A DNA stretch of 64,000 nucleotides from Buxus sempervirens (lineage: Eukaryota > Streptophyta > Magnoliopsida > Buxales > Buxaceae), in NCBI GenBank assembly GCA_947561395.2, contig OX387182.1:54273283-54337282 (forward strand). The letters run 5' to 3'. A model generated the notes under the pieces. The model saw only the letters and a program-made list of their open reading frames with translations, did not search any database and was not told where the DNA came from. This document shows, one piece after another, positions 17,382-64,000 of the stretch; the first letter of the stretch is position 1, and the number at the start of each line of letters is the position of its first letter. The position numbers and the translations under genes were made by a program.

Positions 17382-17386
17382 TTTCT

Positions 17387-21440: not shown

Positions 21441-21452
21441 ATTCAGCGGGGT

Positions 21453-42641: not shown

Positions 42642-43106
42642 ATATTGGGATTTTTTTGTTTGTGGGGTACAACGTTTGGGAAAGAAAAAGGGGACCAAAA
42701 TCAAAGAATATCGCCCCTAATTCTCTTTGTTAAGAGTATAGATGCGTAAATTAATTATAGTCCTAAATTCAAACACCAATGAAATTTTGATTGGGGCTTA
42801 CCATCAGCGTTTAATTTTGATATAGACTTACCATCAGCGTTTAACTTTTCTTAAAGTTACTACTAAGCGGTCGATAAGATACAAAGCGGGGATCATTGCA
42901 TCCAAGAAGTCTTGACGCATGGTCCCCTTGAGTCTATGAATTTTCCAAGGAGGTAATAATTCTTCCTTCAACAAGCCGCACACTATGGAAGTCACTTCCT
43001 TTCGATGATAACCTTTCTCTAAGGAGAGCTAGCTACTTTAGAATGTATGGAGAAACCTTTTCTTGTCATCTTCATTTGTGGCCTTCCCAAGCTTACACGG
43101 CCACCA
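42642..43106 (+). promoter_or_regulatory. 5' flank of P450 copy 4
   Basis: From about 42860 this matches the upstream flanks of copies 2 and 3 (GATACAAAGCGGGGAT, CTTCCTTCAACAAGCCG). The duplicated unit therefore starts upstream of the gene. The first 200 bases hold nothing I recognise. Confidence 0.5.
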
Positions 43107-43785
43107 ATGTCATTTTGGGCCCTTCCCCTTCTCATAACCCTCTGCGAAGTCCTCTTCGCACTCGTCTATCTCCGACGCCAGAAGCATGGCCGGCGACTAC
43201 CACCAGGTCCTCGGAGGCTTCCCTTGCTCGGCAACTTACACCTGCTAGGCAACCTTCCTCACCAGAACCTCCATCGTTTGGCCAAGAAGCATGGCCCCGT
43301 CATGTACGTGCAGCTCAGCCTCGTCCCGGCGGTGGTGGTCTCGTCACTTGAAGATGCCGAGCTATTCCTCAAGACCCACGACCTTGTATTCGCCAACAAA
43401 CCCAACGTCCAAGCTGTTCAATACATCACTTATGGGCGTAAAGGTGTGGCCTTCACTGAGTACGGCCCTTACTGGCGTAACATGCGCAAGCTCTGTACTA
43501 TAGAGGTCCTCAGCAACTCAAAGATTGAGATGTTCAAGCCCATTATGAAGGAAGAACTGGATCTCTTGGTTCAATCTCTCAAGGTTGATTTAGACTCTAG
43601 AGCCATGGTCAACCTTAGCTCTAAGCTTAAAGATCTTGTCCAGGACGTGATGTACCAGATGGTTTTAGGTTGTTCGAGAGGCGCCCAAGGCTGAGTTTGT
43701 TGAAAACACTGAGGAGGCGATGAAGTTGGCAGGAGCTTTTAACATAGCAAATTTCATTCCCTTTGCCGGTGCACTTGATCTCCAG
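43107..43785 (+). pseudogene. Cytochrome P450 exon 1 with frameshift, copy 4
   Basis: It starts MSFWALPLL as in copy 3, with anchor, hinge [17 protein letters not shown] and the following helices. Near 43690 the frame is lost after CSRGAQG: relative to copy 3 the stretch coding for ARSFEFA is shortened and out of frame, giving TGA at 43692-43694. The exon continues in another frame to LDLQ and a normal donor at 43786. No exon 2 is found before the window ends; the intron is left about 110 bases on, where unrelated DNA starts at about 43894. Confidence 0.9.
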
Positions 43786-43893
43786 GTATGATTTCTATAC
43801 TTTTTATATCGGCAACCATCGGCCGATGTCGAGACATTAAAATGGATCCGAAGCTTAAGAGACTAGTGACGATTGATGCTATAGGCAATTATG

Positions 43894-44399
43894 GCGCGCT
43901 CGGATCCTCTGTGAAGCGCATCCTCTGTGAAGCAACGCATCGTCTGTGAAGCGCAATCCAACGGACCAAAATAAGCGAAGGGTAGTAGCGTAATTTTGAA
44001 CGAAACGCTTAAAAAACTATTAAAATTCTCCTCGGCTTTGTCCTCAGCAATCTCCTCGTCTTGATGAAAACGTGCGAAACATATTATTTAATTTAGGATC
44101 CTCTCCACGTCCGCAACGTGCGAAACATATTATTTATTTTAGGATCCTCTCCACATCCGCACCTTACCCGACATTTCTGGACCTTCTTCGTCTTCGTCGT
44201 CCTCATCGCATACGAAAGGGACAGGATCATACTCCATTTGCTTCACAGAGGTTTCCTTTCTTACAAACGCGCGCGCCCACTTGACGAAAGAAAGGGACCA
44301 CCACCATCACAAGAACTTCGTAAGCGAGGGACCACCACGACAGCCACCAGCCTCATTGAAAGACGACTGTAAGCCCTTATTTAATTTTATAATATAATG
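43894..44399. other. Junction zone between P450 array and the large DNA-element region
   Basis: Similarity to the P450 intron ends at about 43893. The new sequence opens with three CTGTGAAGC repeats (43910-43960) and contains a 46-bp direct duplication (ACGTGCGAAACATATT at about 44070 and 44116). It may be the left terminus of the element that fills the rest of the window. I see no matching inverted terminus because the right end is outside. Confidence 0.45.
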
Positions 44400-45380
44400 A
44401 GTCAACGACCAAATGTATACATAAGGAGCCATGGGTACCAGGCGAAATAAGCCAAAGGTACTGCTCCAAATAACGATGGGTACCTGCCGAGTTAAGCTTT
44501 AGCGCTCGGGTACCTGCCGAGGTACGCCCAAAGAGCTCCCCCAAAAACATTTTCGTAGTCAACAAATAAACCTATGGTACCCTCCAAATAAGCATTAGCT
44601 ACATCTCCATTTAATTCACAGGCACCCCCAAATAAAGCGTAGGTACCCCCAGTCAAATAACCCATAAGTACGCCCCACAAATCAGATTAAGGTACCCCAC
44701 TCTAAGCCCAAGGAACCGCATATAAGCCTAAGGTAGCTCCCATACAAACCTAAGGTACCCCATGGTAAGCCAAACCCACTCACGAAAATTAGCCTAAGGT
44801 ACCCCTAAACCTACAGTACCCACAATATAAGCCCAAGGTATCCCCAATATAGGTCTAAGGTACTTCCTGAAATCGTGATTCGGCGATTTGCCCTGAGACC
44901 TAATCGCTACGGAATAGAGACAATGTTTCACTACTTACAGTTAATCGCAAATCCACGATTAGTCTTCTGATTAATCGCCGCACCTAATCGCCATGTCACG
45001 ATTAATCCTGTACTTAATCGTGGTGAAAATCTTGGGAAGTAAGGCTTAGATTCCTCTCCCCTCCCCAATTAATTCATAATTGGTGGGTTACCCAAGGCTT
45101 ATGGGGCTGGTACCTAAGGCTCACTTGTTTGTACCAAGGCATTTTTGGGGTGGGGTACCTAGAACATTTGGGGGGGGGGGATGATATTTGGGGATACCCA
45201 AGGCTTATTTGTGGGGTACGAAAGCCTTATTTTGTTGGGGGTACCGAAGGCTTAATTGGGTTTTGGTAAGCCAATTTGTAGGTGTAGGTAAACCAATTTA
45301 GGGGGCCTATTTGTGGGTACCCAATTCTTATTTGTGGGGTACAAAATGCATATTTGTGGGGTATGTAAGGCGTATTTCAA
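44400..45380. repeat. GGTACC-centred repeats in inverted arrangement
   Basis: At 44400-44870 short units of the form AAATAAGCCTAAGGTACCCC repeat in one direction. At 45060-45375 the complement form (GGGGTACC-AAGGCTTATTTG) repeats in the other. The centre (44870-45030) holds GATTAATCG/CGATTA words, including perfect GATTAATC at 44969 and 45000. A G-run lies at 45172-45181. It ends 90 bases before the ATG of the protease-like gene, so part of it probably acts as that gene's promoter. Confidence 0.75.
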
Positions 45381-45466
45381 TTTACATTTTGATTTTATAG
45401 ATGGCACATGTAAATAGTCACATTGCAAAGTTTTTTTAATCAATTTGTGTATTTATTTGTAGATAA

Positions 45467-48400
45467 ATGGCACCAAGCGGGGAAGGAGTTCGCAATAGAT
45501 GTAGTCCTCAACGACTGCTAAAAATTATCGAAAGGTTGAACGAGTCCCAGAGGCTAGCTGTTAGAGAAATTGGGCTGGGAAGCCTTCTTGATATGACAAT
45601 TAAACACTGTTATAAGGGCAACATTGTGTCCTTATTGGCTTCATTTGATCCCGAAAAATGTTGCCTTGAAGTAAGTGGAAGGACGTTTGATATATCACCT
45701 CCTGATGTTCAGCGGATATTGGGGGTGACCTCTGCCGGGGAGACTATAGAAATCGATGAGGTGGAAAACGACCTCACAGAATTAAAGAAAATGTATTGTG
45801 ATGGTAAGGGTAAGATACCTTTAGGAGAGCTGGAGAGAAGACTGCGAGAGAAGGAGACGGCGGATGAAGATTTTTTGAGGCTTTTTGTATTGCTTGCATT
45901 GGGCTCATTTTTATGCCCGCAAGCTAAGCCGGAGGCCAGCACAAAGTTTTTAAATCTTGTAATGGATATGGAGGGACTCCGTACCCTCAACTGGTCGAAG
46001 TTGGTTCTTGATTGGCTGATTGCCGCAATCCGCCGATACAAGGAGAAGCACCAAATATATGTCGGTGGTTGTTTGGTTTTTCTAAAGGTAAATTATTGTT
46101 ATACACACATTTCATATATTTGGTATGCTTAAATTGTAATGGAAAAATGTTTACTCAATCGCAGATGTTTTATTATGAATGTTTACGCATGGATGGGAGT
46201 GCGATAGAGTTGGATGCAACAGCTCCTCTCATCACCATGTGGAATGATGAGGATGTGTTGGAGAGGGAGAAAGAAGGAAAGGAAAAGGACATGAAAACTC
46301 CGGAAAATATTGAATATGAAAATGTTCCGGAGTCCGATAAATCAAAGGGGAGGAAGAAGGTATATTGTATTGTATTGTATTTATATTTTCGAATAGGGGG
46401 TACTCAATATCAATATTCATTATACGTACATGGACATAAATTTTACTTGATTGTGTGTTTTAGCAGGATAAACTGAGGGCAGCGATAAAGAAGCTAACAA
46501 AGGTAGTTGCTGCCCTTCAGCGTGAGGTAGCCGAATCCCCAAGATTGAAGGCTTTGGAGAAGGAGGTAATGGAAATCGGTTTTTGTCATTATTCATTATA
46601 AGTTCCAGATCTTATAGAAATGCAAATGTTTGTGGCTTGATTTGTTTAGGTGGAGAGATTGAAGTTGATGATAAGCAATCTTGAAGCAGGGCAAGCTGAA
46701 TTAATAGAGATGGTTCTCGAGCTTGTTGGATATGCTCGTGACTACCGAAGCTACCCTGCCCCTGAATGTCCACGTGAACCATTTGAGGTTCCAATGAACG
46801 TTGCTTCTGCACCGGAGGGCCCTTGCCCGGTGTCGCCGATGGAAGATACTGAACCTAGGGCGGAATGTATCCCGGATCCAACAGCGGGAGAATATGAAGG
46901 GTCAATCGTTCCATTTCAACCCGTTGAGGCTCCGAGATTGGAACGAATGAAGATGCCCGGCAAGGCAAAAAGGAGTCCTTTTACAACCATCACCGGGGAG
47001 AAAAAGAAGAGGGCCAGAAAGAGTAAGCAACCGCTCGATACCGAGAGGCCAACGCAAACGGTAAGTAGTATATAATTGGATGTCTAACTGCATGTCAACC
47101 ATTCATGTAAAACTTTACTATAGTAGATTGAAGAGCAAAATTGTTGATGTAATGATCGTGTGACCTACATGAAATATATATCAGGTACCATCTAACGATG
47201 AGGAACGTGCGGAGGCTAGGTTGTTGCTGGATCTGAACATTGCAGATCCGGCCATACAGCCATTGGTATGTTTGTTCTCAGTTTTTCTAAAGGAATTGTT
47301 TTTTGTTTTTCGGTTAGAATTAGGTTGACAGCCATATATTCATTTTTTGGAATTTTTAATAAACTTGTAGGCAAGCGAACCAGTGGATGCATCTTCTAGT
47401 AGGACTCCGGTGGATGCTGGAAGCGCGGTCTGCAACTATGCATTCCGTGAGGACCTCGATCCAGAGTACGTACTTTCGCATATTTATGTTTGACGCATTG
47501 TTTCTTTGTAAATTGTTGCGTATGGTTTGACTGTTTCTTTTGTGGGATATATATGTAGCGAGGTTTTGGTGAGATTCTTCGATGTCTTCATTGCCCGCAG
47601 TGAGTTCGAATTTTTGAAGCCTGAGAAATGGGTTACCAACTGGGTAGGAGTCTAACAACCTAAGTATCTTGTCTGATCGCATAAATATTTGGATTCTTAG
47701 ATTTTATTTTTTTCTATGTAGATCTTGGATTGCTACATGCGGATGCTGAATTTCCAGGAAGAGCAGGTTGGAGGCCCATGTTACTTCTTCCTGTCAGATA
47801 TTGGGGTAATTATTACGACATTCTTCAAAATCATTTGACACTGTCTATAATACTCCTGTTGAACTTATATTATAACTTTTCAGACTTTTTGCGCGGTAGA
47901 AGAAAACCGAGAACTTGCCAGACTTAATGATCAATTTGATCCATCGTACCTACTGAATATGGTGAACTACAAATTGGTAAGCTTAACTCACCATTGTTGC
48001 TGGGATCTTTTAATAGGGTAGGGCTAATAAATATGTTTGTATGCAGTTGTTTTCCCAATATTGGAGAAAGAACATTGGTACATGTGTGTTGTTGACATGA
48101 ATAAGAAGAAAGTATTTTTTTTGAACTCGATGAAGGTATGGAGAACCCGCGAAGTTCTCATTGGGGTGGTAAGTGATCAGCGTAATAATTTCTTGTGTCA
48201 CTAATGTTGTTATTAAGTATCAATTTTTATATTTCAGCTAAAAGCAGTAGATATTATATGCTCCTGGCAATGGGAAAAGGAAGTTTTAGTAATCAAATTT
48301 CCAAGGACGAAAGCAGAGACTCTTAAGCTTCCTCGGCAAGGCAACCCGTACGTTTTCCACCTATACTTTCTTTTCTATCCTTACTACGATATGATATTAA

Positions 48401-48691
48401 TAGCATTAACTTGTAATCGCATCTTTTGTAGCCATGACTGTGGAATCTTCGCCATGAAGTTCGCCGCTTACTGGAGAGGAGAACTTTCTCCTCGATTCAC
48501 GCAGGTACGCTACAACTCCTAACCTATCCAATTGTGTTTTCAAAAGCTCCAAATGATCACATTATTAATATAGTTTTGTTATTCTTGAATAGAATGATAT
48601 TCCGGCCTTCAGAAGAAGCATTGTGAGTGAGATGATCCTCCATGAAGAAAACACGGTGAAGGATGATATCGTGAAGAAGAGTTCTACCTAG
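45467..48691 (+). CDS. Ulp1/C48 SUMO-protease-like protein of a plant DNA transposon, 13 exons
   Basis: Proposed exons: 45467-46087, 46165-46359, 46467-46565, 46650-47060, 47185-47265, 47371-47465, 47559-47643, 47722-47805, 47884-47976, about 48047-48168, 48238-48347, 48432-48504, 48593-48691. All have GT-AG borders, and phases agree except into exon 10. The N-terminal part (IGLGSLLDM, LEVSGRTFDI, GGCLVFLK) is of the type found before Ulp1 domains in plant MULEs. The middle is a charged coiled coil plus a low-complexity linker with KKKRARKSK. The C-terminal domain has the C48 His (EKEHWYMCVVD), an Asn where the family has Asp (FFLNSMK), and Gln/Cys in RQGNPHDCGIF. Entry to exon 10 is two bases out of frame unless a later AG (before AAAGAACAT) is used. 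Likely nuclear; target unknown. Confidence 0.7.
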
Positions 48692-49395
48692 GGGGAGAGT
48701 TCGATGTATTAACATTTTTATCATGCATCAAACTAAAATTTTAATTTTTGGGGAATCTGTATGTATTTATTTGAGAACAAGGATGTTCCTGATATGAATG
48801 CTGTAGCTGAATCAAGCATTCACTTGGATTTTACTTTTATAGCATGTTTAGTTTTATATGATGTTTCACTATCAGATATTTGTAAAGTACTGTGTATATA
48901 GGACATTGTATCCATTGAATAAAAGCTTGGTTATTTTGATTGCTTAAGTTCTGCCACAGATTCGTCAAACTCATTGATCGTAAATTAATACGTAATATAA
49001 GCTGATTTGGGGGATACGTAGGCACGTTTGGAAGGGTATCTCAAGATTAATATGTAATATAAGCTGACTTTTTTTGCATTCCCCGTCTTCCCACAGCCTT
49101 CGCTGCAGATTTTAATCATTTCGTATAATACCTTAGTCTTATAGGTGGAAGTTCATTACCATAGGCTAATATAACCAGCACCTTGGACTGGTTGTTTTGC
49201 ATGTACACGCATTACGACATGCTAGACCCAATGTGTGTGTATTGGGGAGATAGAGGAATATGACAAATGAAAGCTGAGAGCAAACAATATTTGCTTTGCA
49301 TGCACGTATCGCAACGTTTTACAGGCACATAAGTAAAAAAAGATGGTCAAATTAGATGCATTCGATACTCAAATCACATGAAAAGAGGTTCAAGA
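48692..49395. other. Convergent 3' spacer between protease-like and transposon-protein genes
   Basis: AT-rich DNA, with AATAAAAGC near 48919 as a possible polyadenylation signal for the + gene. A direct repeat (TAATATAAGCTGA at about 48994 and 49059) is present. No gene is seen. Confidence 0.5.
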
Positions 49396-51132
49396 CTATG
49401 GGGCAGGCCCTGCTGGATCAGGAACTTTGTGTGCAGGCTCAAGGGATTCAAGCAACAAATGTTCATCTCGAATGTACTCCGCATCACTTGGAGGAATCTG
49501 GTCTCCAACGACACCTTGAGAAGCTGCATCGACAACTGTCCTCTGTTCTCCCCTGTCCCTATGCACCCTATGAAGCTCCTGATTTTCCAACTCAAAGTGC
49601 TTCATGGCCCGGCTGTAGTCTTGTTGCATCTCCCGATATATCTCGTTCAGCCTGGTCTGCTTCTCATGCACTGCTTTTAGTGTGTCATCAGCATTCCATA
49701 CTGTTGTCCTCACCCAATTCAACTTGGTGTCAATTTGTGCAAACTTCGGCTTAATCAGTTCTCGTACGTCCTTTTTCATAGAGTAGGTGTCACCTTCTAT
49801 GTTCTCAAGAAGATGTTCCATCTTAGCAACGTGGCGATCAGTTTCATGCTTGTATGCAAGCTGACCATTGTACAATTGTTTTATCTGCTGCTTCATCGTG
49901 TCCTGGTTCTCAAGAAGTAGCTTGGTTTGATTCATCAACTCACATTGCATGCCCATAACCTGTGAAAGGATTGATGCGAGTCCACGAGGAAATTGGGAAG
50001 AAGTTGTTTGGTCTATAGGAGCAGCAGCAGGAGCAGGCGCCGATGAGGATGGAATATCAGGTTCCACAGGTTGTTCATGTGTAGCAGACTCCGGGAGAGG
50101 AAGATCATGCTCATATCCTATAGAAACATTGGGGGGAGGAGATGGAGGAGCAGGAGCATCTTCACCAGCAGGGGGAGGAGATGGAGGAGATGGAGGAGCA
50201 GGAGCATCTTCACCAGCAGGGGGAGGAGATGGAGGAGCAGGAGCATGGACCCCTGGAACAGGGGGAGGGGGTGGAGGAGGAGGATGAGACTTGTTGTATT
50301 GCCCCTTGGACTTATTATATGTTGCAGTACTGATAGGAGGAAGGGAAGCAAGTAACTCATACTCAGGGAAGTCAATTTGATGCATCTTGACTATCTTTGC
50401 AATGGCACACCTGAGAGGAAGTCCAACCCTATGTTTGGGATCGAGAAAACAGTCAAGCATAAATGAAATCATGATGCTAGCAACATCAATTGAATGCCTC
50501 TTGACCAATGCATAAAGCAAGAGTGCTCTCATAGGAGGCACAGTTGATCTGTGACTCACCGGCGCAAGGTTAGAGCATTGGATTTTGTATATGAATGAGG
50601 TGTCAAATGTAAACTTGGAGGAATCCAGAGGTTTGCCCTCATAGTCCCCCTCCCCCTCAGTTGTCAGTAAAAATGCAGCCACTTCATTGAGCAAAGGTTG
50701 TAAAGGAGCATCAACATACGGGAATTCAGGATTTTCAACTCTCGGAATACCTAGGGCCCCAGCGATGGTATCAGAATCTACATGGATGGGCTGCCTTCTG
50801 AGAGAGGTATCGAAGGATGCGGGACCGTCTGTGATGTTGTGGATGTTTGAATAGAATTCATATACTAGGTGGTGGGATGGGAGCAGGAAGTTGGTGAAGA
50901 GGTTATCCCATCCTCTCCTGGTAAATGCTGCACAAATAGACTCGGGGAAGTCTTCTAGAATAACATCTCTTTCAAGCAAGATTTGTCTGTGGGTGATATT
51001 ATTCTCGTAGATCTTCTTGGCCCTCCGATTGATGAAGATTGAATTATCAAATGAATCAGTCCTGGGTTTCTTATTGGCTTTCCTGGAGGATGTCTTAGGT
51101 TTAGAAGATGAGGCTCTGGTCTTAGGGGCCAT
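49396..51132 (-). CDS. Plant transposon-associated protein (PF20167-like), intact, 578 codons
   Basis: A single uninterrupted frame runs from ATG at 51132. The first 70 residues are basic (nuclear-signal-like RKANKKPR). RGWDNLF at 73-79 and LVYEFYSNI at 89-97 match the hallmark of the 'putative plant transposon protein' family, followed by LGIP, RALLLYALVKR and LPLRCAIAKIV blocks. Residues about 283-350 are a proline-rich tract built from repeated PPSPPPAGEDAPA units, a coding minisatellite at 50140-50265. The rest (about 375-550) is helical and glutamine/charge-rich, probably a coiled coil. It is convergent with the protease-like gene and divergent from the gene at 59149. Function of the family is unknown; an accessory role in transposition is inference. 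Confidence 0.82.
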   Translation of the reverse strand: MAPKTRASSSKPKTSSRKANKKPRTDSFDNSIFINRRAKKIYENNITHRQILLERDVILEDFPESICAAFTRRGWDNLFTNFLLPSHHLVYEFYSNIHNITDGPASFDTSLRRQPIHVDSDTIAGALGIPRVENPEFPYVDAPLQPLLNEVAAFLLTTEGEGDYEGKPLDSSKFTFDTSFIYKIQCSNLAPVSHRSTVPPMRALLLYALVKRHSIDVASIMISFMLDCFLDPKHRVGLPLRCAIAKIVKMHQIDFPEYELLASLPPISTATYNKSKGQYNKSHPPPPPPPPVPGVHAPAPPSPPPAGEDAPAPPSPPSPPPAGEDAPAPPSPPPNVSIGYEHDLPLPESATHEQPVEPDIPSSSAPAPAAAPIDQTTSSQFPRGLASILSQVMGMQCELMNQTKLLLENQDTMKQQIKQLYNGQLAYKHETDRHVAKMEHLLENIEGDTYSMKKDVRELIKPKFAQIDTKLNWVRTTVWNADDTLKAVHEKQTRLNEIYREMQQDYSRAMKHFELENQELHRVHRDRGEQRTVVDAASQGVVGDQIPPSDAEYIRDEHLLLESLEPAHKVPDPAGPAP

Positions 51133-51840
51133 CTAAGAGTTCAGAAGAAGAGAGGAAGAAAAATAAATATGCACAAAACAACACAGAGCAAACGATAATG
51201 TTAGACACAGAAAATATGAGTGCTACCGAATGAAAATATTATAGAATGTGAATAATATGAATAATTGTGTGGAAAAAAACCCACTCCCTATATACATAAA
51301 AAAAAACCCCAACACTTGAGGAAAAAGTGCAGGCGTTATTCACGCGTTAGGGAGATAACAATAGGGATGTGTACTTGTCAAAGGCTTAAAGGAAAAGTGA
51401 ATAGTAACTTGATTGCAACCGATAATATAAACCATTCCGACAAAGATAAAGCAAAATGTACCTCTTCAAGACATTAGAATAAACACATAGATCGGAAACC
51501 CTAAATGAACAAATTAATACCCTAATCGTAACATATAAAATCAAAGCAGTAAAGTTCGTAAAGCATCTCGTACGTCCTTCGAACCAGAAATATAGGCTTT
51601 GGAACTCTTCCAGAAGAGAATAAAGTGGTACCCACCCTGAGAAGACTTTATCGTAATGAAGATGAAGCACTTCGGATGGCTTTGATTGCGCGCTTTGATT
51701 CACATGGACGAAATAACGCGCCAGACCTGTTTCTTTGTAAATATAGGCAAACGCGCGGACGCACGCGCCCAGCACGAGCGCGCGTTGATATTAAATATGT
51801 GTAAAAACATAGGGAATTTCTAAAAGTGTACCTTCGGTTT
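51133..51840 (-). promoter_or_regulatory. 5' flank of the intact transposon-protein gene
   Basis: A TATATA lies at 51289-51294, 157 bases upstream of the ATG on the minus strand, and could be the TATA box. Further upstream, at 51750-51790, ACGCGCG-type words cluster, including an exact CACGCGC at 51763-51769. The large repeat array starts directly beyond. No gene is seen here. Confidence 0.4.
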
Positions 51841-54800
51841 ATGTTTGGGGTACCTCAGGCAAAATGTGGGGATACCTCATGCAAAAAATTTGGGGTACCC
51901 ACACCCAAAGCGAACGTCCGAGCGTTCACGAGAGGGTGCGCGCGTTGATATTAAATATGTGTCGTACCTAGGGCCTCTTAACTTTTTTAAAGGATCCAAC
52001 GGATTTTTAAAGTGTCCCTTCGGTTTTTTAAAGGGAACCTTCGGCACAAGTACGAAGCAAAGTACATACAAGGTACCCCAAATATTACGTGGGTACCCAA
52101 GCAATAACATGAAGGTACCCCATACGTAAGGCGAAGGTACCCAATATAAGGAATCACTAAGACGCGTTAACGCGTGGACGTTAAAGTCCAACACGCGCAC
52201 GTTAAAGCTATAAATCGACAGTTGTCTTCTTCGGCCAGAACGTTCGCGCGTTAGACATTAACGTCCGCTCATTGAAGTCTGTCCCTTATCCTTCTAGGGG
52301 TACCTTCGCCTTAAGGTTGGGGTACCTTCGTATTTTCTCACGGGGTACCTTAGTTTTAATTGGGGTACTTGTGGCCTACGCTAATGTATGCGTCTGTGTA
52401 TGTACGTACATACATGTGTACACATACATACAAACAAGCCGATACACAAGTACGCAGGTATACATGTGTTTGCGTGTGTACATGTACATGTACACACGCA
52501 TATGTTCTTGTACGTGTATATCTACACACATGTGTACACATGTACACACATGTCTATATCTGTTCAAATGCATGTAAATGTACATGTATGTGTAGAAACG
52601 TACACACATGTACATGTGTGCACATATTTACATGTGTAAGTGTGTACACATGAGTGCACACACATGTACATGTGTGCACATCTACACATGTGTACATGTG
52701 TACACAGATGACAATGTGCATGTCTACATTTGTAAGGTACATCAGCAAATAAGCCAGAGGTGCCCCCAAATGATAACTTAAGGTAGGCACAAATACGAAG
52801 CAACGTATGTACAAGGTACCCCAAATAAAACGTGGGTACCCAAGCAATAACATGAAGGTACCCCATACGTAAGGCGAAGGTACCTAATATAAGGAATCAC
52901 TAAGACGCGTTAACGCGCGAACGTTAAAGTCCAACGCGCGTGCGTTAAAGCTATAAATCGACAGTTTTCTTCTTCGGCCAGAACGTTCGCGCGTTAGACA
53001 TTAACGTCCGCTCGTTGAAGTCTGTCCCTTATCCTTCTAGGGGTACCTTCGCCTTAAGGTTGGGGTACCTTCGTATTTTCTCACGGGGTACCTTAGTTTT
53101 AATTGGGGTACCTGTGGCCTACGCTAATGTATGCGACTGTGTATGTACGTACATACATGTGTACACATACATACAAACAAGCCGATACACAAGTACGCAG
53201 GTATACATGTGTTTGCGTGTGTACATGTACATGTACACACATGTGTACACATGTACACACATGTCTACATCTGTTCAAATGCATGTAAATGTACATGTAT
53301 GTGTACAAACATACACACATGTACATGTGTGCACATATTTACATGTGTAAGTGTGTACACATGAGTGCACACACATGTACATGTGTGCACATCTACACAT
53401 GTGTACATGTGTACACAGATGACAATGTGCATGTGTACATTTGTAAGGTACATCAGCAAATAAGCCAAAGGTGCCCCCAAATGATAACTTAAGGTAGGCA
53501 CAAATACGAAGCAACGTATGTACAAGGTACCCCAAATAACACGTGGGTACCCAAGCAATAACATGAAGGTACCCCATACGTAAGGCGAAGGTACCCAATA
53601 TAAGGAATCACTAAGACGCGTTAACGCGCGAACGTTAAAGTCCAACGCGCGTGCGTTAAAGCTATAAATCGACAGTTGTCTTCTTCGGCCAGAACGTTCG
53701 CGCGTTAGACATTAACGTCCGCTCGTTGAAGTCTGTCCCTTATCCTTCTAGGGGTAGTTTCGCCTTAAGGTTGGGTACCTTCGTATTTTCTCACGGGGTA
53801 CCTTCGTTTGTATTGGGGTACCTGTGGCCTACCCTAATTTATGCGTCTATGCATGTACGTACATACATGTGTACACATGTATAAAACCAAGCCGATACAC
53901 ATCAAAAATTGTACTTACATGTGAGCACACATGTGTGTGCGTGGGTACATCTACATGTACACAAGTACATGTTCTTGTACGCGGACATGTACAGACATGT
54001 GTACACATGTACACACATGTCTGTACATGTACATAGATGTACATGTACACGTATGTGTACAAATGTACTCATATGTTCACATGTGTACATGTGTAAACAT
54101 GTATGTACATGTACATGTGTACACACATGTACCTGTGTACACACATGTACATGTTTACACCTGTACACACACGGTCACATGTTTACACACATATACATGT
54201 GTGCACATACACATGTGTACATGTCTACCCATATATACATGTACATGTTTACTCATATACACATGTGTACATGTGTGTGCACGCATATATACATGTACAT
54301 GTGTACACATATACACGTGTACATATGTAAACATGTACATGTGTACATGTCTACTCATAAACATGTGTACATGTGTACGCATATACACGTGTACATATGT
54401 AAACATGTACACATGTACATGTGTACATGTTTACTCATATACACATGTGTACATGTCTACGCATATATACATGAACATGTGTACACATGTACACATGTAC
54501 ACACATGTGTACAAACACGTGCATATGTAAAGGTTCACGTACACATGTTTGTGCACAAGTACATGTGTACACGTGTACATGGCTCAGGTACCCAAGAAAT
54601 AAGACCATGGCACCCATCAAATAATTCTAAGGTACATCAGAAAATAAGCCAAAGGTGCCCCCCAATTATGCCTTACGTTAGCCACAATTAAGAAGCCAGG
54701 TACTGAATGGGTACCCCACATAACACGTAGGTACCTAACAAATAATATGAAGATACCCGATATGAAAGGCGAAGGTACCCGGTAAAAGGAACTACCAAGA

Positions 54801-54880
54801 AACGTATACGCGCGGACGTTAGAGTCCAACGCGCGAACGTTTAAATTATAAAACAAGATAACGCGCGAGCGTTTAGAAGA
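51841..54880 (+). repeat. Left arm of palindromic array: about four direct units
   Basis: The unit core (GGAATCACTAAGACGCGTT, then pairs of ACGCGCG...AACGTT words, then CTGTCCCTTATCCTTC and GGTACC-spaced sequence) begins at about 52149, 52893, 53603 and, diverged, 54787. The first two spacings are 744 and 710 bp; the third is 1,184 bp because its simple-sequence tract is expanded. Between cores lie tracts of TGTACA/ACATGTG words (52385-52735, 53120-53450, 53840-54580). Short frames rich in Cys, His, Thr and Tyr in these tracts are products of the repeat. Confidence 0.92.
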
Positions 54881-55080
54881 ACATCCGCTCCTTAATGTTC
54901 TTTACGCAGAGCATTTACTGAGGTACCTTCGGTTTAATGCGGTGTACCCCAATCTTCCTTGGGGAGTACCTGAATTTTACGTGGGGTACCCATATTTGAT
55001 TTTGTTACTTTTTTTCATGGGGACAACTAAACGCTTGTATGGGGGTACAATGGGCTGATCTGGGGGATAACCCAGATGCA
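54881..55080. other. Centre of the palindromic array
   Basis: About 200 bases separate the two arms. Three GGTACC-type words are present, but this part is not matched in the units. The inverted copies start beyond it. Confidence 0.6.
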
Positions 55081-58000
55081 AACAGGATGGTACCCTGCTT
55101 TATAGATACACGTGTACACCTGTGTACACATACACATTGTCATCTGTGTACACATGTACACCTGTGTTTATGCGCACACATGTACATGTGTGTACACATG
55201 TACACACTTACACATGTAAATATGAGCACACATGTACATGTGTGTACATTTGTACATTTGCACACATGTAAGTACATTTTTTGATCTGTATCGGCCTGCT
55301 TGTATGTATATGTACATGCACGTACAAGAACATATGCGTGTGTACATGTACATGTACACGCAAACACATGTATACCTGCGTACTTGTGTATCGGCTTGCT
55401 TATATGTATGTGTACACATGTATGTATGTACATACACAGACGCATACATTAGCGTAGGCCACAGGTACCCCAATTTAAACAAAGGTACCCCGTGAGAAAA
55501 TACGAAGATACACCAACCTTAAGGCGAAGGTACCCCTAGAAGAAGAAGGGACAGACTTCAACGCGCAGACGTTAATGTCTAACGCGCGAACGTTCTGGCC
55601 GAAGAAGACAACTGTCCATTTATAGCTTTAACGCGCGCGCATTGGACTTTAACGTCCACGCGTTAAGGCGTCTTAGTGATTCCTTATATTGGGTACCTTC
55701 GCGTTACGTATGGGGTACCTTCATGTTATTGGTTGGGTACCCGCGTCTTATTTGGGGTACCTTGTACGTACTTTGCTTCGTATTTGTGCCTACCTTAAGT
55801 TATCATTTGGGGGCACCTCTGGCTTATTTGCTGATGTACCTTACAAATGTACACATGCACATTGTCATCTGTGTACACATGTACACATGTGTAGATGTGC
55901 ACACATATACATGTGTGTGCACTCATGTGTACACACTTACACATGTAAATATGTGCACACATGTACATGTGTGTACGTTTCTACACATACATGTACATTT
56001 ACATGCATTTGAACAGATGTAGACATGTGTGTACATATACACGTACAAGAACATATGCGTGTGTACATGTACATGTACACACGCAAACACATGTATACCT
56101 GCGTACTTGTGTATCGGCTTGTTTGTATGTATGTGTACACATGTATGTACGTACATACACAGACGCATACATTAGCGTAGGCCACAGGTACCCCAATTAA
56201 AACAAAGGTACCCCTTGAGAAAAGATGAAGGTACCCCAACCTTAAGGCGAAGGTACCCCTAGAAGGATAAGGGACAGACTTCAACGAGCGGATGTTAATG
56301 TCTAACGCGCGAACGTTCTGGCCGAAGAAGACAACTGTCGATTTATAGCTTTAATGCGCGCGCGTTGGACTTTAACGTCCGCGCGTTAACGCGTCTTAGT
56401 GATTCCTTATATTTGGTACCTTCGCCTTACGTATGGGGTACCTTCATGTTATTGCTTGGGTACCCACGTAATATTTGGGGTACCTTGTACGTACTTTGCT
56501 TCGTACTTGTGTATCGGCTTGGTTTTATACATGTGTACACGTGTATGTACGTACATGCACAGACGCATAAATTAGGGTAGGCCACAGGTACCCCAATTAA
56601 AACGAAGGTACCCCGTGAGAAAATACGAAGGTACCCCAACCTTAAGGAGAAGGTACCCCAAGAAGGATAGGGGACAGGGGTCAACGCGCGGACGTTAATC
56701 GCTAAAGCACGAACGTTCCGGCCGAAGAAGACAACTGTCCATTTATAGCTTTAACGCGCGCGCGTTGGACTTTAATGTCCGCGCGTTAAGGCGTCTTAGT
56801 GATTCCTTATATTGGGTACCTTCGCCTTACATATGGGGTACCATCATGTTATTGCTTGGATACCCACGTGTTATTTGGGGTACCTTGTACGTACTTTGCT
56901 TCGTATTTGTGCCTACCTTAAGTTATCATTTGGGGGCACCTCTAGCTTATTTGCTGATGTACCTTACAAATGTACACATGCACATTGTCATCTGTGTACA
57001 CATGTACACATGTGTAGATGTGCACACATATACATGTGTGTGCACTCATGTGTACACACTTACACATGTAAATATGTGCACACATGTACATGTGTGTACG
57101 TTTCTACACATACATGTACATTTACATGCATTTGAACAGATGTAGACATGTGTGTACATATACACGTACAAGAACATATGCGTGTGTACATGTACATGTA
57201 CACACGCAAACACATGTATACCTGCGTACTTGTGTATCGGCTTGTTTGTATGTATGTGTACACATGTATGTACATACATACACAGACGCATACATTAGCG
57301 TAGGCCACAGGTACCCCAATTAAATAAAAGGTACCCCTTGAGAAAAGACGAAGGTACCCCAACCTTAAGGCGAAGGTACCCCTAGAAGGATAAGGGACAG
57401 ACTTCAACGAGCGGACGTTAATGTCTAACGCGCGAACGTTCTGGCCGAAGAAGACAACGGTCGATTTATAGCTTTAACGCGCGCGCGTTGGACTTTAACG
57501 TCCGCGCAATAACGCGTCTTAGTGATTCCTTATATTGGGTACCTTCGCCTTACGTATGGGGTAACTTCATGTTATTGCTTGGGTACCCACGTAATATTTG
57601 GGGTACCTTGTACGTACTTTGCTTCGTACTTGTGTATCGGCTTGGTTTTATACATGTGTACACATGTATGTACGTACATGCACAGACGCATAAATTAGGG
57701 TAGGCCACAGGTACCCCAATTAAAACGAAGGTACCCCGTGAGAAAATACGAAGGTACCCCAACCTTAAGGCGAAGGTACCCCAAGAAGGATAGGGGACGG
57801 GGTCAACGCGCGGACGTTAATCTCTAACGCGCGAACGTTCCGGCCGAAGATAACAACTGTCCATTTATAGCTTTAACGCGCGCGCGTTGGACTTTAACGT
57901 CCGCTCGTTAACGCGTCTTAGTGATTCCTTATATTGGGTACCTTCATGTTATTGCTTGGGTACCAACGTGTTATTTGGGGTACCTTGTACGTACTTTGCT

Positions 58001-58400
58001 TCGTATTTGTGTATCGACTTGCTTTTATACATGTGTACACATGTATGTACGTACATGCACAGACGCATAAATTAGGGTAGGCCACAGGTACCCCAATTAA
58101 AACGAAGGTACCCCGTGAGAAAATACGAAGGTACCCCTAGAAGGATAAGGGACAGACTTCAACGCGCGGACGTTAATGTCTAACGAGCGAACGTTCCGGC
58201 CGAAGAAAACAACTGTCGATTTATAGCTTTAACGCGCGCGCGTTGGACTTTAACGTCCGCGCGTTAACGCGTCTTAGTGATTCCTTATATTGGGTACCTT
58301 CACCTTACGTATGGGTTACCTTCATGTTATTGCTTGGGTACCCACGTGTTATTTGGGGTACCTTGTACGTACGTTGCTTCGTATTTGTGCGTACCTTTTA
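55081..58400 (-). repeat. Right arm of palindromic array: six inverted units with higher-order period
   Basis: The same unit occurs in complement. Its core marker (GCGTCTTAGTGATTCC) lies at about 55670, 56393, 56792, 57513, 57912 and 58268. The spacings are about 721, 399, 721, 399 and 356 bp: long units hold a tract of TGTACA/CATGTG words and short units have lost most of it. A long-plus-short pair thus repeats as a 1.12-kb higher-order unit. Copies are nearly identical by eye, which suggests recent amplification. With 51841-54880 it forms a palindrome of about 6.5 kb. Confidence 0.92.
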
Positions 58401-59148
58401 GTTATTAGACTAATTAAGTATTTGGGTTATGGAGATGAGGTAAATGTGGATTATTCTTGACGATTTAAACAAATCAATTGAACTTTTGAAGGTTATTGAG
58501 GTAATTTTAATTAATGTTATTTCTAAACTCCAATTCTCTAAGATACTCTCCAATTAGGGGGTACTCAGATTTGTATGTATTGAAGGTTCAAAAATACGTG
58601 CACATATCTTACATGAGTCACATTCATAACGTGACACGAATGTTATAAACTCTCACATCATTCAATCCCTTTCCCATGATTTGTAGACACATTATTATAT
58701 CATAAAAATATAATATTTTCATACAGCAAGTCGCTGTTTCATCAGGGTTAGGTCCCATGCGTAATCGGAACATGGCGATTAAGCATGCGATTAATCTACT
58801 GAATGTTACGACTAATCTTGCGGCCGTATGTATTATTTGTATGCGCGCAAGCGAGGGTTTATGTTTGGGTGTATAAATAGAGGGTTTCGCTCCACTTCGT
58901 ACTCACGATTAATCTAGGGTTTCCTACGCATGGGTCCCCATATTCCACTGTTCTCCTGCTGCCTCTCGCCTCCAAATCACGATTAATCTACGGTATCTTA
59001 TACGGACTTCCTGTTTCTTCCAGGGTTCTCCAAGTCTGTATACTCTCCAACTCAAGGCCAAATATACAGGGTTTACGGTTTGGCTCCACCAAGTTTCCAC
59101 TGTGAGTTGTGTCGAACATTGTTTTGTTCTCTGTCATTTTTTAAAATC
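58401..59148 (+). promoter_or_regulatory. Promoter region of the second transposon-protein gene
   Basis: About 350 bases of AT-rich DNA follow the array, then a region with CGATTA words. A good TATA box, TATAAATA, lies at 58872-58879, so transcription would start near 58905. Perfect GATTAATC palindromes occur at 58789, 58907 and 58981, on both sides of the presumed start. The leader to the ATG at 59149 is about 240 bases. Confidence 0.55.
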
Positions 59149-60444
59149 ATGCCTCGAACAAAGAATTCTAGCATGCGCCGTAAGAGGAGAAGGGATAGGA
59201 CTCCTGCACCTGCAAGTCCCTCATTATCTTCCGGCTCTCATTACAGCCCTTCTGAGACAGAGGAACCCAATCACTCTCAGTCTACCATCCACAGGGAGAC
59301 TTATTCTCCTGATAATTCCTCGTCTGCACCTTCTGAAGCCGAGCAGATTCGGCAGCGACCCTTGATTGTTGAGAAACCGGTTGTTAAATCATGTTTAGCA
59401 CCATATGTTATTGTACAGATTCTGGAAGCTGTTGGTTGGTCCGGCATTCTAGATTGGGGGGATGCTGCCAACTCCTCGACTGTTGCTCAACTTTACGCCG
59501 GATCCCGTAACTTGTCCACCCCTCCTTTTCGTGAGCCTGCATTTGAGATCAAAGTGGCAGACTCTACCTATACTGTCACACCTGACTTGATAAGTGATCT
59601 AATGGGTATACCTACATCAGAGGTCCGTTTCCTGAACCCACCAACGCAAGAGGAACTTGCTGAGGCCACTCAATGTCTGTGTGGGATTGATGCACCATGA
59701 AAAAAGACTGTGCTTCAAGCTAATCAGCTCTTCCCTAAGTATAGAATACTCCATCTCATCTTCACATTCAATGTCTATCCTAGGTGCGGTAATAAGTTCG
59801 AGCTGACCAAGGCCATGGTCGTCCTTCTCTACCGTCTCATTACTCAAACGCGCCTTTGTCTGCCCACATTCATTTGCAGACATATATGTCAAGTTGTCCA
59901 TTCATCTGGTCACAGAGCCCTTCCGTTTGCCTATCTTATGACCAGGATTGGGATGAGGTTTGGTTTACATGGACCTCCTGATTCCATGGTTATTTCAAGA
60001 CATTTTTCACAGATGAATCTAAATCAAATGCAACTTGCACCTTTGCACCACCACTGTCACGCGGCTCAGAGATCCGGAGAATCAAAGGCGCACCAACAGC
60101 AGCCACAACAAAGACAGGAAGCAGAGCCAGCACAACCTTCATCATCACATCCTCGTCCACCCACTTCTCAACCCAGCTCTTTCAAGACATATTCACGACG
60201 TGGACCGTCGTCAGAAGCCTTTCGTAGGCTTAGCCAAGATGTTGGAGAGATTCGAGAGGATTTTGGCAGTCTACGACGTGATTTTGGAATGTTTCAGGAA
60301 TCTATCACTAATGAAGTTGGTGGACTAAAGAAGCTGGTCAAGAAAGCCGTGAAGATAGTGACTCATCTCTTCACTTGCTCCAGTCAGCAGACTCCATCCC
60401 TCCCACCACTTCCCGGGTCTGATGACGATGACATTGCACCGTAG
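59149..60444 (+). pseudogene. Second plant transposon-associated protein, one internal stop
   Basis: ATG at 59149 (MPRTKNSSMRRKRRR) begins a frame with a basic, Ser/Pro-rich N-terminus. The conserved core shows VGWSGILDWG, VAQLYAGSRN and LISDLMGIP, corresponding to the RGW...LVxEFY...LGIP blocks of the gene at 49396-51132. A TGA at 59698-59700 interrupts it. The same frame continues with RILHLIFTFNVYPR, KAMVVLLYRLI and LPFAYLMTRIG, which are also family blocks. It then has a Gln/Pro/Ser linker, a predicted coiled coil (FRRLSQDVGEIREDFGSL) and an acidic end DDDDIAP. The whole is about 431 codons. It is a distant paralogue of the minus-strand gene, divergent from it across the array. Either a recent pseudogene or a truncated product. 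Confidence 0.75.
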
Positions 60445-61084
60445 TGTGCTGATTTTAGACTTACTTCTATGTTTTGGATATAAATGTATTTATCTCAACG
60501 CAACTCCGATGTATAGAATGTACTCATTTCACATAGTAAAAGTATTCGTAATTACAGCATCAGTTCCTTCTACTCCGAATCAGTTCCTTCTTTGAAAAGA
60601 TGATTGGCGGTGTACCGTACGCCTCATTTGGGGGCTATCCAAGGCATCATTGGGGGGATTCCTTGAGGACAAGGGCATAATTACAGGGAACAAAGTGGTA
60701 CGTTAGGAAGTAGGAAGAATTGCCTTCTAACGCGCGGACGTTACATTTGGTACATACACATCCTTGTACAATTAGAAAAAATGAACACTTACATTGCACT
60801 ACAAAAACAATATAATTACAGGACTAACATTGCCATCACATTCAATATACACAATTCACTCCCCCTTTTTTGTCGTACCAATATACAAAAGAATCACAAA
60901 TCTCCAGGGAAATGACCTAAATCTCCTTCTTGACGATATAAGCTCCCATCTCCACTATAAACTCCTGGAGATCTCCCTACAGTAGAGTTTGAACAGGAGC
61001 CAAATTGATTCTGGCCAACAGTATTGCTTGAGTTGGATTCTTGGAATATGTTTGGACTCATTGATTCCTGTCATTAATGGAATG
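60445..61084. other. Convergent spacer before the transposase gene
   Basis: It contains a 20-bp direct duplication (ATCAGTTCCTTCT at about 60560 and 60580), a GGTACC-like and GGGGG-containing patch at 60600-60665 similar to the repeats near 45 kb, and ACGCGCGGACGTTA at about 60728, identical to the array motif. No gene is seen. Confidence 0.5.
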
Positions 61085-61431
61085 TCATTGCAAAGCATTG
61101 AAATTCTTCACAAAGTATTGAAGAGTAGGATCTTCTAGAAAATATACCCGTAGTAGCTGTGTGTAAGTACCAGGTTGTTGGAATGGAGACAAAATTGCAT
61201 ATTCAGCCATAGGATATGTTCTCGATTGCATTCCCGTCACCACTCCATCTGTTCGAAACTGATGAGAGGCCTATGGAATAGATAAAATTCATAAAAAATC
61301 AGAAAATCCCCCATAAAACCATAAACATGATATGATAAAACAAATACATTAGTATTAGGTAAGTATTATACCATTGTCTCACTCCATCCAGAGCTTTGAC
61401 TTGCATATTATGTTTGTGGTGGAGTTTGAGT
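61085..61431 (-). pseudogene. Former C-terminal tail of the FAR1-like transposase
   Basis: In the transposase frame, coding-like sequence continues past TAG at 61432-61434: TQTPPQT, a TAA, then YASQSSGWSETM, to a good GT donor at 61371-61370. An acceptor at 61271 opens a second exon (61270-61085) in the right phase with ASHQFRTDGVVTGMQS and ending VKNFNALQ before TGA. The stops fit single C-to-T changes (CAG to TAG, CAA to TAA). The older gene thus probably had a tail of about 85 further residues that is now lost. Confidence 0.55.
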
Positions 61432-63636
61432 CTAAATTGTATTTGCCGTTTGAGTTGGTATGTCATGGTTCCTCTTCCTCTTTGGAGCCCTTTCTGAAAA
61501 ATGTTTTGGTCGACGTCCACTACGACCTCGACCCGGCTTCCTCTTCAATCCAGCAACGGTGATTTGAATATTTTCAGATAAATTCTCTACTTCATTCCCA
61601 TCCACTGTGCTCGGAGTCTTGTTCTTCAGCACATTTCCAACTTCGGTCATTAAAATGGCCAGCCCATTCGCAGCACATTCATATGCCTCGAAAGTTTCAG
61701 CAGCAATTGCTGATAATTTAATGGCATTATGGCAAAGTTCTCTGTACCGTTTAACCATGGACAGCTTTGCCACTTCCTCATCTAACATACGACTATAACT
61801 TGGGCTGCAACCCTTTGCATCCTTTGTCCACCGCTTTAATATGTATTGACTTGGGATCCTCTTAATATTTCGCATGTCAAGTACTTTGAGTGCATGGCTA
61901 CACAAAATCCCAACAAATTCAAACTTACGGCAACTGCATTTCAACATCTCATCCTCAGTGTTAACTGTAACAACATGCCCTCGAGGATTATCAAATAAGC
62001 TAACTTTATAGATTTTGGATGTCTCAGTATGTGAAGTCTCATTAACAACAAGATTCTGCGCTTTTGCATATTCCGATTGAAAAATCTCAAACAGCTTCGG
62101 TGTGTATACCTCCCTTGCATGCTTTAATATGATGATTTCCGCCATCATTCTTGGAATACGCTGGCTCATATTATAATTGTATTCCTGTTCCTTGTAACGG
62201 ATATCATCCAAAAGCCTTGAAAAATGCTGGAAAAAACACGAGACGTCCATGTTGTACTTCGTGTATTTCTTTAACCGGCTGTTGAAGCTTTCACTCAGTT
62301 GGGTGCTCTTCATGTCAGCACAAAATGTAGTTCTTCCATATACAAGGGCCCATTTCTCCTTTATCTTAAATATGCCCTTCAGCCACTCATTGTCTTGGAG
62401 ATCGTATTTTTGAATCATTGCATCCCACGCTTCCAAGAACTCAGCCTCTTCCTCGTAATCATATATACACCGATTGAAATCAAATGAAAAGGAGGTTCTC
62501 GTTTGGAATACGTGACCGAGATGTTTCAATGAATTTTGGTGCAAATGCCATACACATAACCGATGATAGGTGTTCGGCAAAACAAGAGCAATTGCAGCTG
62601 ACATAGCTGCATCTTGGTCTGTCAAGATGGTAACTGGCCTTTTCCCATTCATTGCCTTTATAAATGTTTCAAACAACCAAACAAAGGATGCCTTCGTCTC
62701 ATCATAAAGCATTGCGGCTCCGAACACTACCATTCGTCTGTGATGGTTGACTCCAACCAATGGTGCAAATGGCCTTTGATCTTCGTTTGTCCTATAAGTT
62801 GTATCAAAACAAACGACATCTCCAAAATTATTGTAGTCTTCTTGCATCTTCCGATCAGCCCAGAAAAAGTTTGTTATTTCATTGTTCTCATCAACTTGTA
62901 CAGCATAAAAGAAAGACGGATCGTCAATCAGTTGTCCTTCAAAATAAATTAATAACCTTGATCCGTCTCCTACTTTCATTGCTCTCCGTCTATCACGCAT
63001 CTGGTTCTTATGGTCAATAGGTAGGAAGCCCAAATTCTCTCTTCCGCCGACTTCTCTACCCATGAACTCAAAAGCATGCTTTGGTCGTATACCACTGCTT
63101 TCTGCTAATACAATTTCTGCTAATTGCGCCTCTGTAACTTTCCTCTGTGAAGGTAGCATGTGCGCCTTACTTGAGGTAACAACCTCATGATTATGCTCAT
63201 CCTCAAAGCTTGCTACAAAATACATGCCATTGTCTTGAGCTTTCACAGTCATGTGTGCCAAACAACCCGTACGTGTTTCCTTTCTAGGGTTCTTCACATC
63301 TTTATCCTGTTTGTCTGTTCCCTTCTTCCCTTCTTTATAGCAACAAAACTTCCTACACAACTCCTTACCATCTTTCCGAATTTTCCATCTCGTACTCTTT
63401 CGAATACTGAAGCCCTTCTGTGCTGCATAAGCATTGTAAAATCTATACGCTTCATCGGTACATGGGAACTCCATTCCCACGGATGGCCTAAAATTTTGAG
63501 TATGCCCTTCGCCGTCATCGAACCTTAGTGCTCTTACAACTCTAGGCACTGTATTTATATCCACTATATCATCACTGACCTCATCTCCACTTAATTGCTC
63601 ACTTCCACTTGTAGAAATGACTTGCTCAATTTGTCC
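61432..63636 (-). CDS. FAR1-like MULE transposase (5' exon missing)
   Basis: One open exon starts after an acceptor at 63637 (CAAATTGAGCAAG follows) and gives 734 codons. Counting from 63564: FAR1-type zinc finger at about 35-127 (C70, C101, H124/H126), MULE DDE domain with FDTTY (D254), TDQD (D316), CVWHLHQN and LSESFN (E425), SWIM finger CSC...CSH (C543, C545, C555, H557), and a basic AT-hook-like and nuclear signal tail (KRKPGRGRSGRRPK). GTG, not ATG, stands at 63564, and a TAG in the acceptor blocks further extension, so the true start is in an upstream exon that I could not define. All catalytic residues are present. It would cut and paste elements bearing its sites. It could also be a domesticated FRS-type regulator, but its neighbours argue for a mobile-element gene. 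Confidence 0.85.
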   Translation of the reverse strand, partial: GQIEQVISTSGSEQLSGDEVSDDIVDINTVPRVVRALRFDDGEGHTQNFRPSVGMEFPCTDEAYRFYNAYAAQKGFSIRKSTRWKIRKDGKELCRKFCCYKEGKKGTDKQDKDVKNPRKETRTGCLAHMTVKAQDNGMYFVASFEDEHNHEVVTSSKAHMLPSQRKVTEAQLAEIVLAESSGIRPKHAFEFMGREVGGRENLGFLPIDHKNQMRDRRRAMKVGDGSRLLIYFEGQLIDDPSFFYAVQVDENNEITNFFWADRKMQEDYNNFGDVVCFDTTYRTNEDQRPFAPLVGVNHHRRMVVFGAAMLYDETKASFVWLFETFIKAMNGKRPVTILTDQDAAMSAAIALVLPNTYHRLCVWHLHQNSLKHLGHVFQTRTSFSFDFNRCIYDYEEEAEFLEAWDAMIQKYDLQDNEWLKGIFKIKEKWALVYGRTTFCADMKSTQLSESFNSRLKKYTKYNMDVSCFFQHFSRLLDDIRYKEQEYNYNMSQRIPRMMAEIIILKHAREVYTPKLFEIFQSEYAKAQNLVVNETSHTETSKIYKVSLFDNPRGHVVTVNTEDEMLKCSCRKFEFVGILCSHALKVLDMRNIKRIPSQYILKRWTKDAKGCSPSYSRMLDEEVAKLSMVKRYRELCHNAIKLSAIAAETFEAYECAANGLAILMTEVGNVLKNKTPSTVDGNEVENLSENIQITVAGLKRKPGRGRSGRRPKHFSERAPKRKRNHDIPTQTANTI

Positions 63637-64000
63637 CTACAACATAAAACAGATATTCCACTTAGAATATCATACTAATAACAATATATAGTACCCATGA
63701 ACATCACATGGTAACCATTCTCTTCAACCATTTGCCAAGTTGGTGTATTTTGAGGGCTTATTACAAAACATGAGTACGTCGGAATAATTTCTTAGTACCT
63801 AGACACATGGTACCTACGAATTATTTTTACGGTATGCTAAGGGTACGAAGGTGGTACATAAGTTTTGGACCTTCTTCATTCCCATAGGTTTGGTTAAAAT
63901 AAGATAGAATATACTGGCAAAAAATAAAGTCAAAAAAAAGACAAAACCTGTCCGCGTGATTAGCCCAGAGATTAATCGTGAGATCCGCGATTAGAATTTT
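63637..64000 (-). promoter_or_regulatory. 5' region of the transposase gene
   Basis: It should contain the first exon and perhaps the promoter. An ATG at 63731 starts MVEEN, but its donor phase does not fit the next exon. GGTACC/GTACC words lie at 63775-63865. A GATTAATC palindrome at 63970-63977 is followed by CGATTA, as in the promoters near 45.0 and 58.9 kb. The element clearly continues beyond the window. Confidence 0.45.

Follow-up and report, generated by a model that had tools for sequence, protein, structure and literature searches.

What joins the genes and the repeated short motifs that crowd one part of the Buxus sempervirens genome, and what could the motifs do for the genes beside them? 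The question arises from a stretch of 64,000 nucleotides (C1:54273283-54337282 in the 676.5-Mb assembly; hereafter the window, to which all positions refer unless otherwise stated), which was read together with 10 kb to its left and 20 kb to its right. An earlier reading of the letters of the window, made with no database searches and called here the sequence-only reading, had seen a very large DNA element with a FAR1-like transposase of the Mutator-like element (MULE) type, a C48 protease-like gene and two PF20167-like genes, and had left several related elements inserted side by side as the alternative. We find that the four genes are parts of a single mobile element, firmly identified as one large MULE with a FAR1-type (Jittery-like) transposase. 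More tentatively, we propose that its own proteins act on the motif arrays and keep its noncoding DNA active.

A single insertion of 21.4 kb

The element starts at 43894, exactly the left end called from the letters alone, and extends for 21.4 kb to 65293, beyond the right edge of the window. Its left terminal inverted repeat (TIR) of about 157 bp (43894-44050, plus strand) has a partner outside the window at 65136-65293, with 88% identity over 158 aligned columns. Both flanks carry the 9-bp target-site duplication GCAATTATG (43885-43893, and 65292-65300 outside the window). An inverted copy of the left end to the right of 64 kb and a duplication of 8-11 bp were the two marks that the sequence-only reading had proposed to look for, and both are in place. 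Moreover, when the flanks are joined at GCAATTATG they align over the junction to two cytochrome P450 paralogues of the window (32941-33985, 86%; 2266-3312, 82%), and these alignments extend 105 bp beyond it. The 21.4 kb therefore arrived as one insertion, at a point about 200 bp beyond the first P450 exon. The P450 paralogues form a tandem series that comprises, besides the two just given, 43023-43893 and, in the right extension, 65301-66907; the second exon of the interrupted copy had no match in the stretch read to the right of the window.

The same parts in the same order make up four other copies (C1 at 36.09 Mb, C3 at 5.75 Mb, C9 at 28.05 Mb, and C11). Of the five copies followed from end to end, four, among them the window copy, are flanked by an exact 9-bp duplication (TGGAATAGC in the other C1 copy, CATTACACA in C3 and CAAAGAGGG in C9, as read from the printed copy ends), that of the C11 copy being imperfect, and the inverted ends of the five align over 138-210 columns with 84-97% identity. 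In a C19 copy, read in part, genes 3 and 4 are separated by 21 kb. Recurrence was followed further with one DNA probe each for the left end, genes 1, 2 and 3, and the transposase; these gave 434, 156, 124, 135 and 237 first-look candidates, respectively, the best 40 matches of each being scored. Another part of the element was found within 30 kb of 34, 38, 29, 37 and 36 of these 40 matches, in the same probe order, and across all 200 the strand and order of every such partner agree with the window, as had been predicted for a true element. The 200 matches fall into 90 clusters, with at least two parts in 63, at least three in 38, at least four in eight and all five in one; with the best 40 matches per probe as the basis, a partner missing from a cluster is no sign of its absence. 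The distance from left end to transposase is 16.5-21.8 kb in 16 cases, and shortened copies are present as well, with 4.0 kb from gene 1 to the transposase at C10:23.15M.

Several related elements lying adjacent or nested are, in this light, almost certainly not what the locus holds. PF20167 open reading frames (ORFs) are indeed plentiful elsewhere in the genome (2050 first-look places, the best 150 scored), but the single flanking duplication, the two empty-site paralogues and the identical order in other copies rule that arrangement out. The fixed order and orientation, the inverted end and the target duplication all speak for one element, and among the best 40 matches per probe we saw neither transposase copies consistently devoid of their partners nor ends or duplications between the genes.

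Four genes in two convergent pairs

The arrangement described by the sequence-only reading was found in full: all four gene types are present, as two convergent pairs that flank an inverted-repeat region (52.0-58.4 kb). Gene 4, the transposase, lies on the minus strand at 61432-63564 (open frame 61432-63636) and matches the MULE (5e-28), FAR1 (1e-25) and SWIM (1e-7) domains; open frames of 756 aa occur in five other copies. The MULE transposase domain, together with the inverted ends and the 9-bp duplication, makes the element a MULE, and the FAR1 N-terminus with the SWIM C-terminus places it, by domain set, in the Jittery/FAR1 type. The pN/pS ratio (nonsynonymous over synonymous differences per site) of the transposase is 0.69 over 28 pairs of copies, with 0.61 in deep and 1.01 in shallow pairs, which suggests constraint in the deep pairs, more weakly than for gene 1.

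Gene 1 (45467-48692, plus strand) comprises 13 exons, set by GT-AG borders read by eye, and joins a PMD/DUF1985-like N-terminus to a Peptidase_C48 C-terminus. The product has 722 aa in the C1:36.09M copy, where the Pfam match to Peptidase_C48 is 1.1e-13, and the N-terminus matches PMD at 7e-6 (25.8 bits vs a Pfam cut-off of 34.9). Residues 500 to 708 align with human SENP2 (1tgz) at an E-value of 9e-14, and the H, D, Q and C columns, which we take to be the catalytic residues, are kept. Pooled over 15 pairs, pN/pS is 0.54; ten of the 12 deep pairs range from 0.42 to 0.55, with 0.64 and 0.72 in the other two, and the three shallow pairs from 0.81 to 1.47. Judged by these ratios, gene 1 shows constraint in the deep pairs.

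The two PF20167-type genes stand on either side of the centre. Gene 2 (49396-51132, minus strand; 578 aa) matches PF20167 at 5e-21 and has a basic N-terminus, a proline-rich linker and a C-terminus modelled, at low confidence, as long helices. The match of gene 3 (59149-60444, plus strand) is weaker: 9e-11 in another copy, where its 42.4 bits lie just below the curated cut-off of 45. Gene 3 is open over 431 aa in four other copies, and has a stop codon at 59698 in the window copy. Both genes align pairwise with the 3' ORF of a Ty1/copia element that carries copia gag, integrase and RVT_2 (C4:43761000-43769500, L038:1-8501), gene 2 with 28% identity over 243 columns (E 1e-18) and gene 3 with 21% over 226 columns (E 1e-7). 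A common origin of genes 1, 2 and 3 was tried and rejected, the profile comparisons being weak (probability 19, 0.1 and 1); homology of genes 2 and 3 is therefore claimed through PF20167 and the copia ORF alone. AlphaFold2 models of the two, from three and four near-identical sequences, reach a mean pLDDT (predicted local distance difference test score) of 37 and 33. Regarding selection, pN/pS is 0.96 over 10 pairs for gene 2 (deep 0.99, shallow 0.82), with 0.72 in its PF20167 part and 1.69 in its proline-rich part, and 0.90 over 21 pairs for gene 3 (deep 0.99, shallow 0.59); values near 1 would be compatible with neutral decay and with fast change, which cannot be told apart by this ratio.

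Motif arrays in the noncoding DNA

Three blocks of motifs lie to the 5' sides of the genes. The block before gene 1 (44434-45321) contains 12 GGTACC and two GATTAATC; the central inverted-repeat region (52043-58397), onto which the 5' sides of both PF20167 genes face, holds most of the GGTACC and AACGCGCGNNCGTT sites; and the block before the transposase (63809-64000, continuing outside the window to about 64768) has nine GGTACC and four GATTAATC in all. The window copy thus carries 95 GGTACC in 12.9 kb of intergenic DNA, 12 on the left, 74 in the centre and nine on the right, vs Markov-chain means of 0.6, 3.7 and 0.6. None lies wholly inside exons or gene 1 introns of the window copy, and the flanks contain six in 62.6 kb. 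Each of the five copies has GGTACC in its left, central and right blocks, and in none does a whole site fall within the coding stretches counted; a single site per copy straddles a gene 1 intron/exon border (47184 in the window). Adjacent sites are mostly 20-23 bp apart, aside from gaps of at least 100 bp. Inverted repeats cover 55-82% of the centre in the five copies, with arms that vary in length and likeness; folding of motif pairs into hairpins as single strands gave nothing notable.

The sequence-only reading had held that all intergenic parts share the same three motifs. This needs correction: it holds for GGTACC in most of the five copies, and for the other two motifs in none. In every copy read, GATTAATC is restricted to the three 5' blocks (two, two to three, and four sites, respectively), and AACGCGCGNNCGTT occurs in the centre and in the spacers, never at the ends, again in five of five. 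The window copy, with its 95 GGTACC and nine GATTAATC in the three blocks and neither motif in the two convergent spacers (spacer 1, 48693-49395; spacer 2, 60445-61431), hinted that arrays lie only on the 5' sides of genes. The other copies rule this out: GGTACC is found in spacer 1 of four of the five copies (6-7 sites) and in spacer 2 of three (4-5 sites), the window copy being shorter, by about 590 and 500 bp respectively, than the C11, C1, C3 and C9 copies that keep GGTACC there. The core of AACGCGCGNNCGTT, AACGCGC, is present 14-52 times per copy and is absent from 43.9 kb of flank. It differs at one base from CACGCGC, given as the FHY3/FAR1 site in the accessible part of PMC6000157.

GGTACC is retained where the DNA around it changes. 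Among the five copies, 1340 of 1562 aligned sites (86%) are kept at 74-80% identity and 2023 of 2352 at 80-85%, vs 0.273 and 0.339 for other hexamers; retention is 0.846 vs 0.519 at 85-90% identity and 0.905 vs 0.828 above 90%. Among hexamers with at least 150 occurrences, GGTACC ranks first of 107 at 74-80%; at 80-85% it is second of 200, exceeded by AAGGTA, a hexamer that overlaps the extended site. Two other palindromes serve as controls: TGTACA and ACATGT, present in similar numbers in the first of these classes, reach 0.53 there and 0.67 in the second. The central arrays are 75-87% alike between copies vs 94-98% for the genes, and the arms within one copy are 97% alike.

Genome-wide, AACGCGCGNNCGTT was counted 1096+1094 times vs 6+8 for its reversed control, and 77 of the 95 distinct sites listed lie within 25 kb of a probe match, in about 0.7% of the stretch searched. 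Pairs of the form GGTACCN14-17GGTACC number 10264 vs 995 for the reversed control, a large share of them being in element copies, which hold 14-43 each. The motifs also occur outside the element. A locus of 2401 bp picked for its GGTACC array (L039, C1:1700200-1702600) had no match to the element proteins and only array matches of 54-81 bp, and no coding content was recognised in its 2.4 kb, which contain AACGCGCGNNCGTT twice exactly and a third time with one mismatch, and GATTAATC four times. It belongs to a different repeat family (3389 first-look places, the best 40 scored), and these 40 places are not near the best 150 of PF20167, the nearest being 44.6 kb away. In the first 9.19 Mb of C1, a GATTAATC pair lies no more than 2 kb from seven of 13 GGTACC-pair loci, against a random mean of 0.17 and a maximum of 3 in 5000 draws, and AACGCGCGNNCGTT lies within 3 kb of two of the 13. 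In six of the seven the spacing is 658-708 bp; the seven may all stem from a single repeat family, in which case they do not count as independent. Separately, short repeats at C1:4858708, 4936527, 4990427 and 5018179 have a GGTACC pair separated by a fixed sequence, GATCCAGTCCAAAAT or a near variant of it, and are probably unrelated to the element.

What the arrays may be for

Motifs placed between the genes and retained amid fast change point to binding by a protein, for which the evidence is good but not independent. That the element itself encodes this protein, and that its binding counters silencing, is our best guess, drawn by analogy with VANDAL/VANC. In the reading that we favour, at a probability of about 0.43, proteins of the element act on the motif arrays and so keep its noncoding DNA active. 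The transposase would act on the ends of the element, and the C48 gene product would act in trans, as would both PF20167 proteins. At least one element-encoded protein would bind the dyad-symmetric motifs, probably as a dimer, keeping the noncoding DNA active as VANC does for VANDAL, and the protease would perhaps strip SUMO from silencing factors. AACGCGC may be a target of the FAR1 domain, either that of the transposase itself or that of host FHY3/FAR1 proteins. In more general terms, we infer, like the sequence-only reading, that the protease and the accessory proteins may help transposition or counter silencing.

Several observations weigh against an anti-silencing role. Every one of the five copies read has at least one broken gene; in the window copy a frameshift in exon 10 disrupts gene 1 and the stop codon interrupts gene 3, gene 2 and the transposase being open. 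The DUF1985 and PMD matches of gene 1 are below the Pfam cut-offs, and purifying selection on genes 2 and 3 was not found in the deep pairs (0.99 for both). PF20167 retrotransposons were considered as carriers of the motifs and discarded, the one read, L038, having no GGTACC, GATTAATC or AACGCGCGNNCGTT. Moreover, the motif sites are repeated and their alignments overlap and were compared both ways, hence the retention counts are not independent. Finally, the spacer GGTACC arrays of the other copies shift the balance slightly toward a use of the arrays in transposition itself, where the transposase or the accessory proteins would bind them to fold or assemble the long element for excision. We find this quite unlikely. 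Arrays do lie near both ends, in the centre and in the convergent spacers of most copies, and a motif one base off the FAR1-family site is enriched; CACTA elements, in addition, use subterminal repeat arrays. On the other hand, most sites are central, at about 8-14 kb from the left end, the first GGTACC lies about 540 bp inside that end with none in the inverted repeat, and AACGCGCGNNCGTT is missing from both end blocks in all five copies.

We doubt that the two PF20167 genes, possibly together with the protease gene, are mere passengers, with arrays conserved through repeat copying and homogenisation or through the binding of host transcription factors. The pN/pS near 1 of both PF20167 genes in deep pairs would fit, as would the existence of shortened copies and the contrast between central arrays that diverge among copies and arms nearly alike inside one. 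Homogenisation alone, however, leaves unexplained why GGTACC is retained over palindromes of similar frequency in the same arrays, the gene order is held in all partner pairs found, and gene 1 keeps its low pN/pS in ten of 12 deep pairs. An extension of the anti-silencing reading, unlikely as it stands, is a sequence-specific self-activation by several proteins: of the three dyad-symmetric motifs, each with its own placement, AACGCGCGNNCGTT would be recognised by the transposase through its FAR1 domain, and GGTACC and GATTAATC by the PF20167 and/or PMD-C48 proteins, and all these proteins might also control or mobilise the unrelated repeat family with the same motifs. Relatives of the PF20167 and/or PMD-C48 proteins are carried by retrotransposons.

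Other features of the window

Remains of a long terminal repeat (LTR) retrotransposon, with gag, RVT_1, RNase H and integrase, lie on the minus strand at 12954-22895 together with a 704-aa G-patch ORF, and units of about 76 bp in tandem (22787-23641) adjoin its gag end. A stretch of about 2 kb is present in three direct copies (7714-9973, 25582-27841 and 39356-41607), the first two being 17,868 bp apart and partly identical.

Comparison with known systems

The Jittery/FAR1-type MULEs, among them CitMule from citrus and Jitvine from grapevine, share with the element a transposase with FAR1, MULE and SWIM domains. CitMule has 9-bp duplications and a length of 6.8-6.9 kb, according to the part of PMC4334395 available; the duplications are alike here, but the length is 21.4 kb. 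For the plant Jittery sub-group, the accessible text of PMC6446971 gives TIRs of 39-292 bp, a single ORF, and either an 8-bp duplication or no indication of one. The TIRs of the element fall within that range, whereas in place of one ORF it has four genes, two of them of PF20167 type, and its central inverted repeat is accompanied by motif arrays. In grapevine and melon, some Jittery-like MULEs bear ULP sequences (PMC2528002, as excerpted). As far as these partial sources go, Jittery-like MULEs with Ulp1 sequences are already known, and what is added here is the pair of PF20167 genes, the arrangement of four genes and the motif code, none of which was found in the open literature searched, most subscription papers lying outside it.

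PF20167 (Transposase_32) is reported in an Athila ORF of sunflower in the portion seen of PMC11728184. The domain is thus shared with ORFs of LTR retrotransposons, and here it occurs as two diverged genes inside a DNA transposon. If our reading is right, related accessory proteins would be shown in both kinds of element, and PF20167, with about 2000 first-look places in this genome and no tested role in the literature searched, would gain candidate functions. Capture of PMD genes by MULEs, with a possible anti-silencing use, has also been proposed (PMC5418596, partial text). Gene 1 has a PMD-like stretch, below cut-off, and joined to C48 rather than to a transposase.

The precedent for anti-silencing by a transposon protein is VANC of the VANDAL elements, with short motifs in fast-changing noncoding repeats (PMC5735166 and PMC10398659, from the passages available). 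VANDAL and Kaonashi (KIU) elements are, from partial sources, MULEs with a transposase and extra genes, a DUF1985-like part joined to Ulp1, and noncoding motifs. The element resembles them in its extra genes and its motifs, while in gene 1 the C48 domain is above cut-off and the DUF1985-like part below it. VANDAL and KIU elements are non-TIR or degenerate-TIR, whereas the element has clear TIRs, different motifs and PF20167 proteins; its transposase is of the FAR1 type. The arrays of the element are confined to noncoding DNA like those of VANDAL elements. A transposase of the MuDR type is usual in VANDAL and KIU elements, unlike here. In the literature searched, as far as its accessible text goes, sequence-specific anti-silencing by transposons is documented for the Arabidopsis VANDAL elements; if our reading holds, the element described here, in which a FAR1-type transposase is joined by a protease, two proteins of retrotransposon type and a strongly conserved set of motifs, would provide another, independent example.

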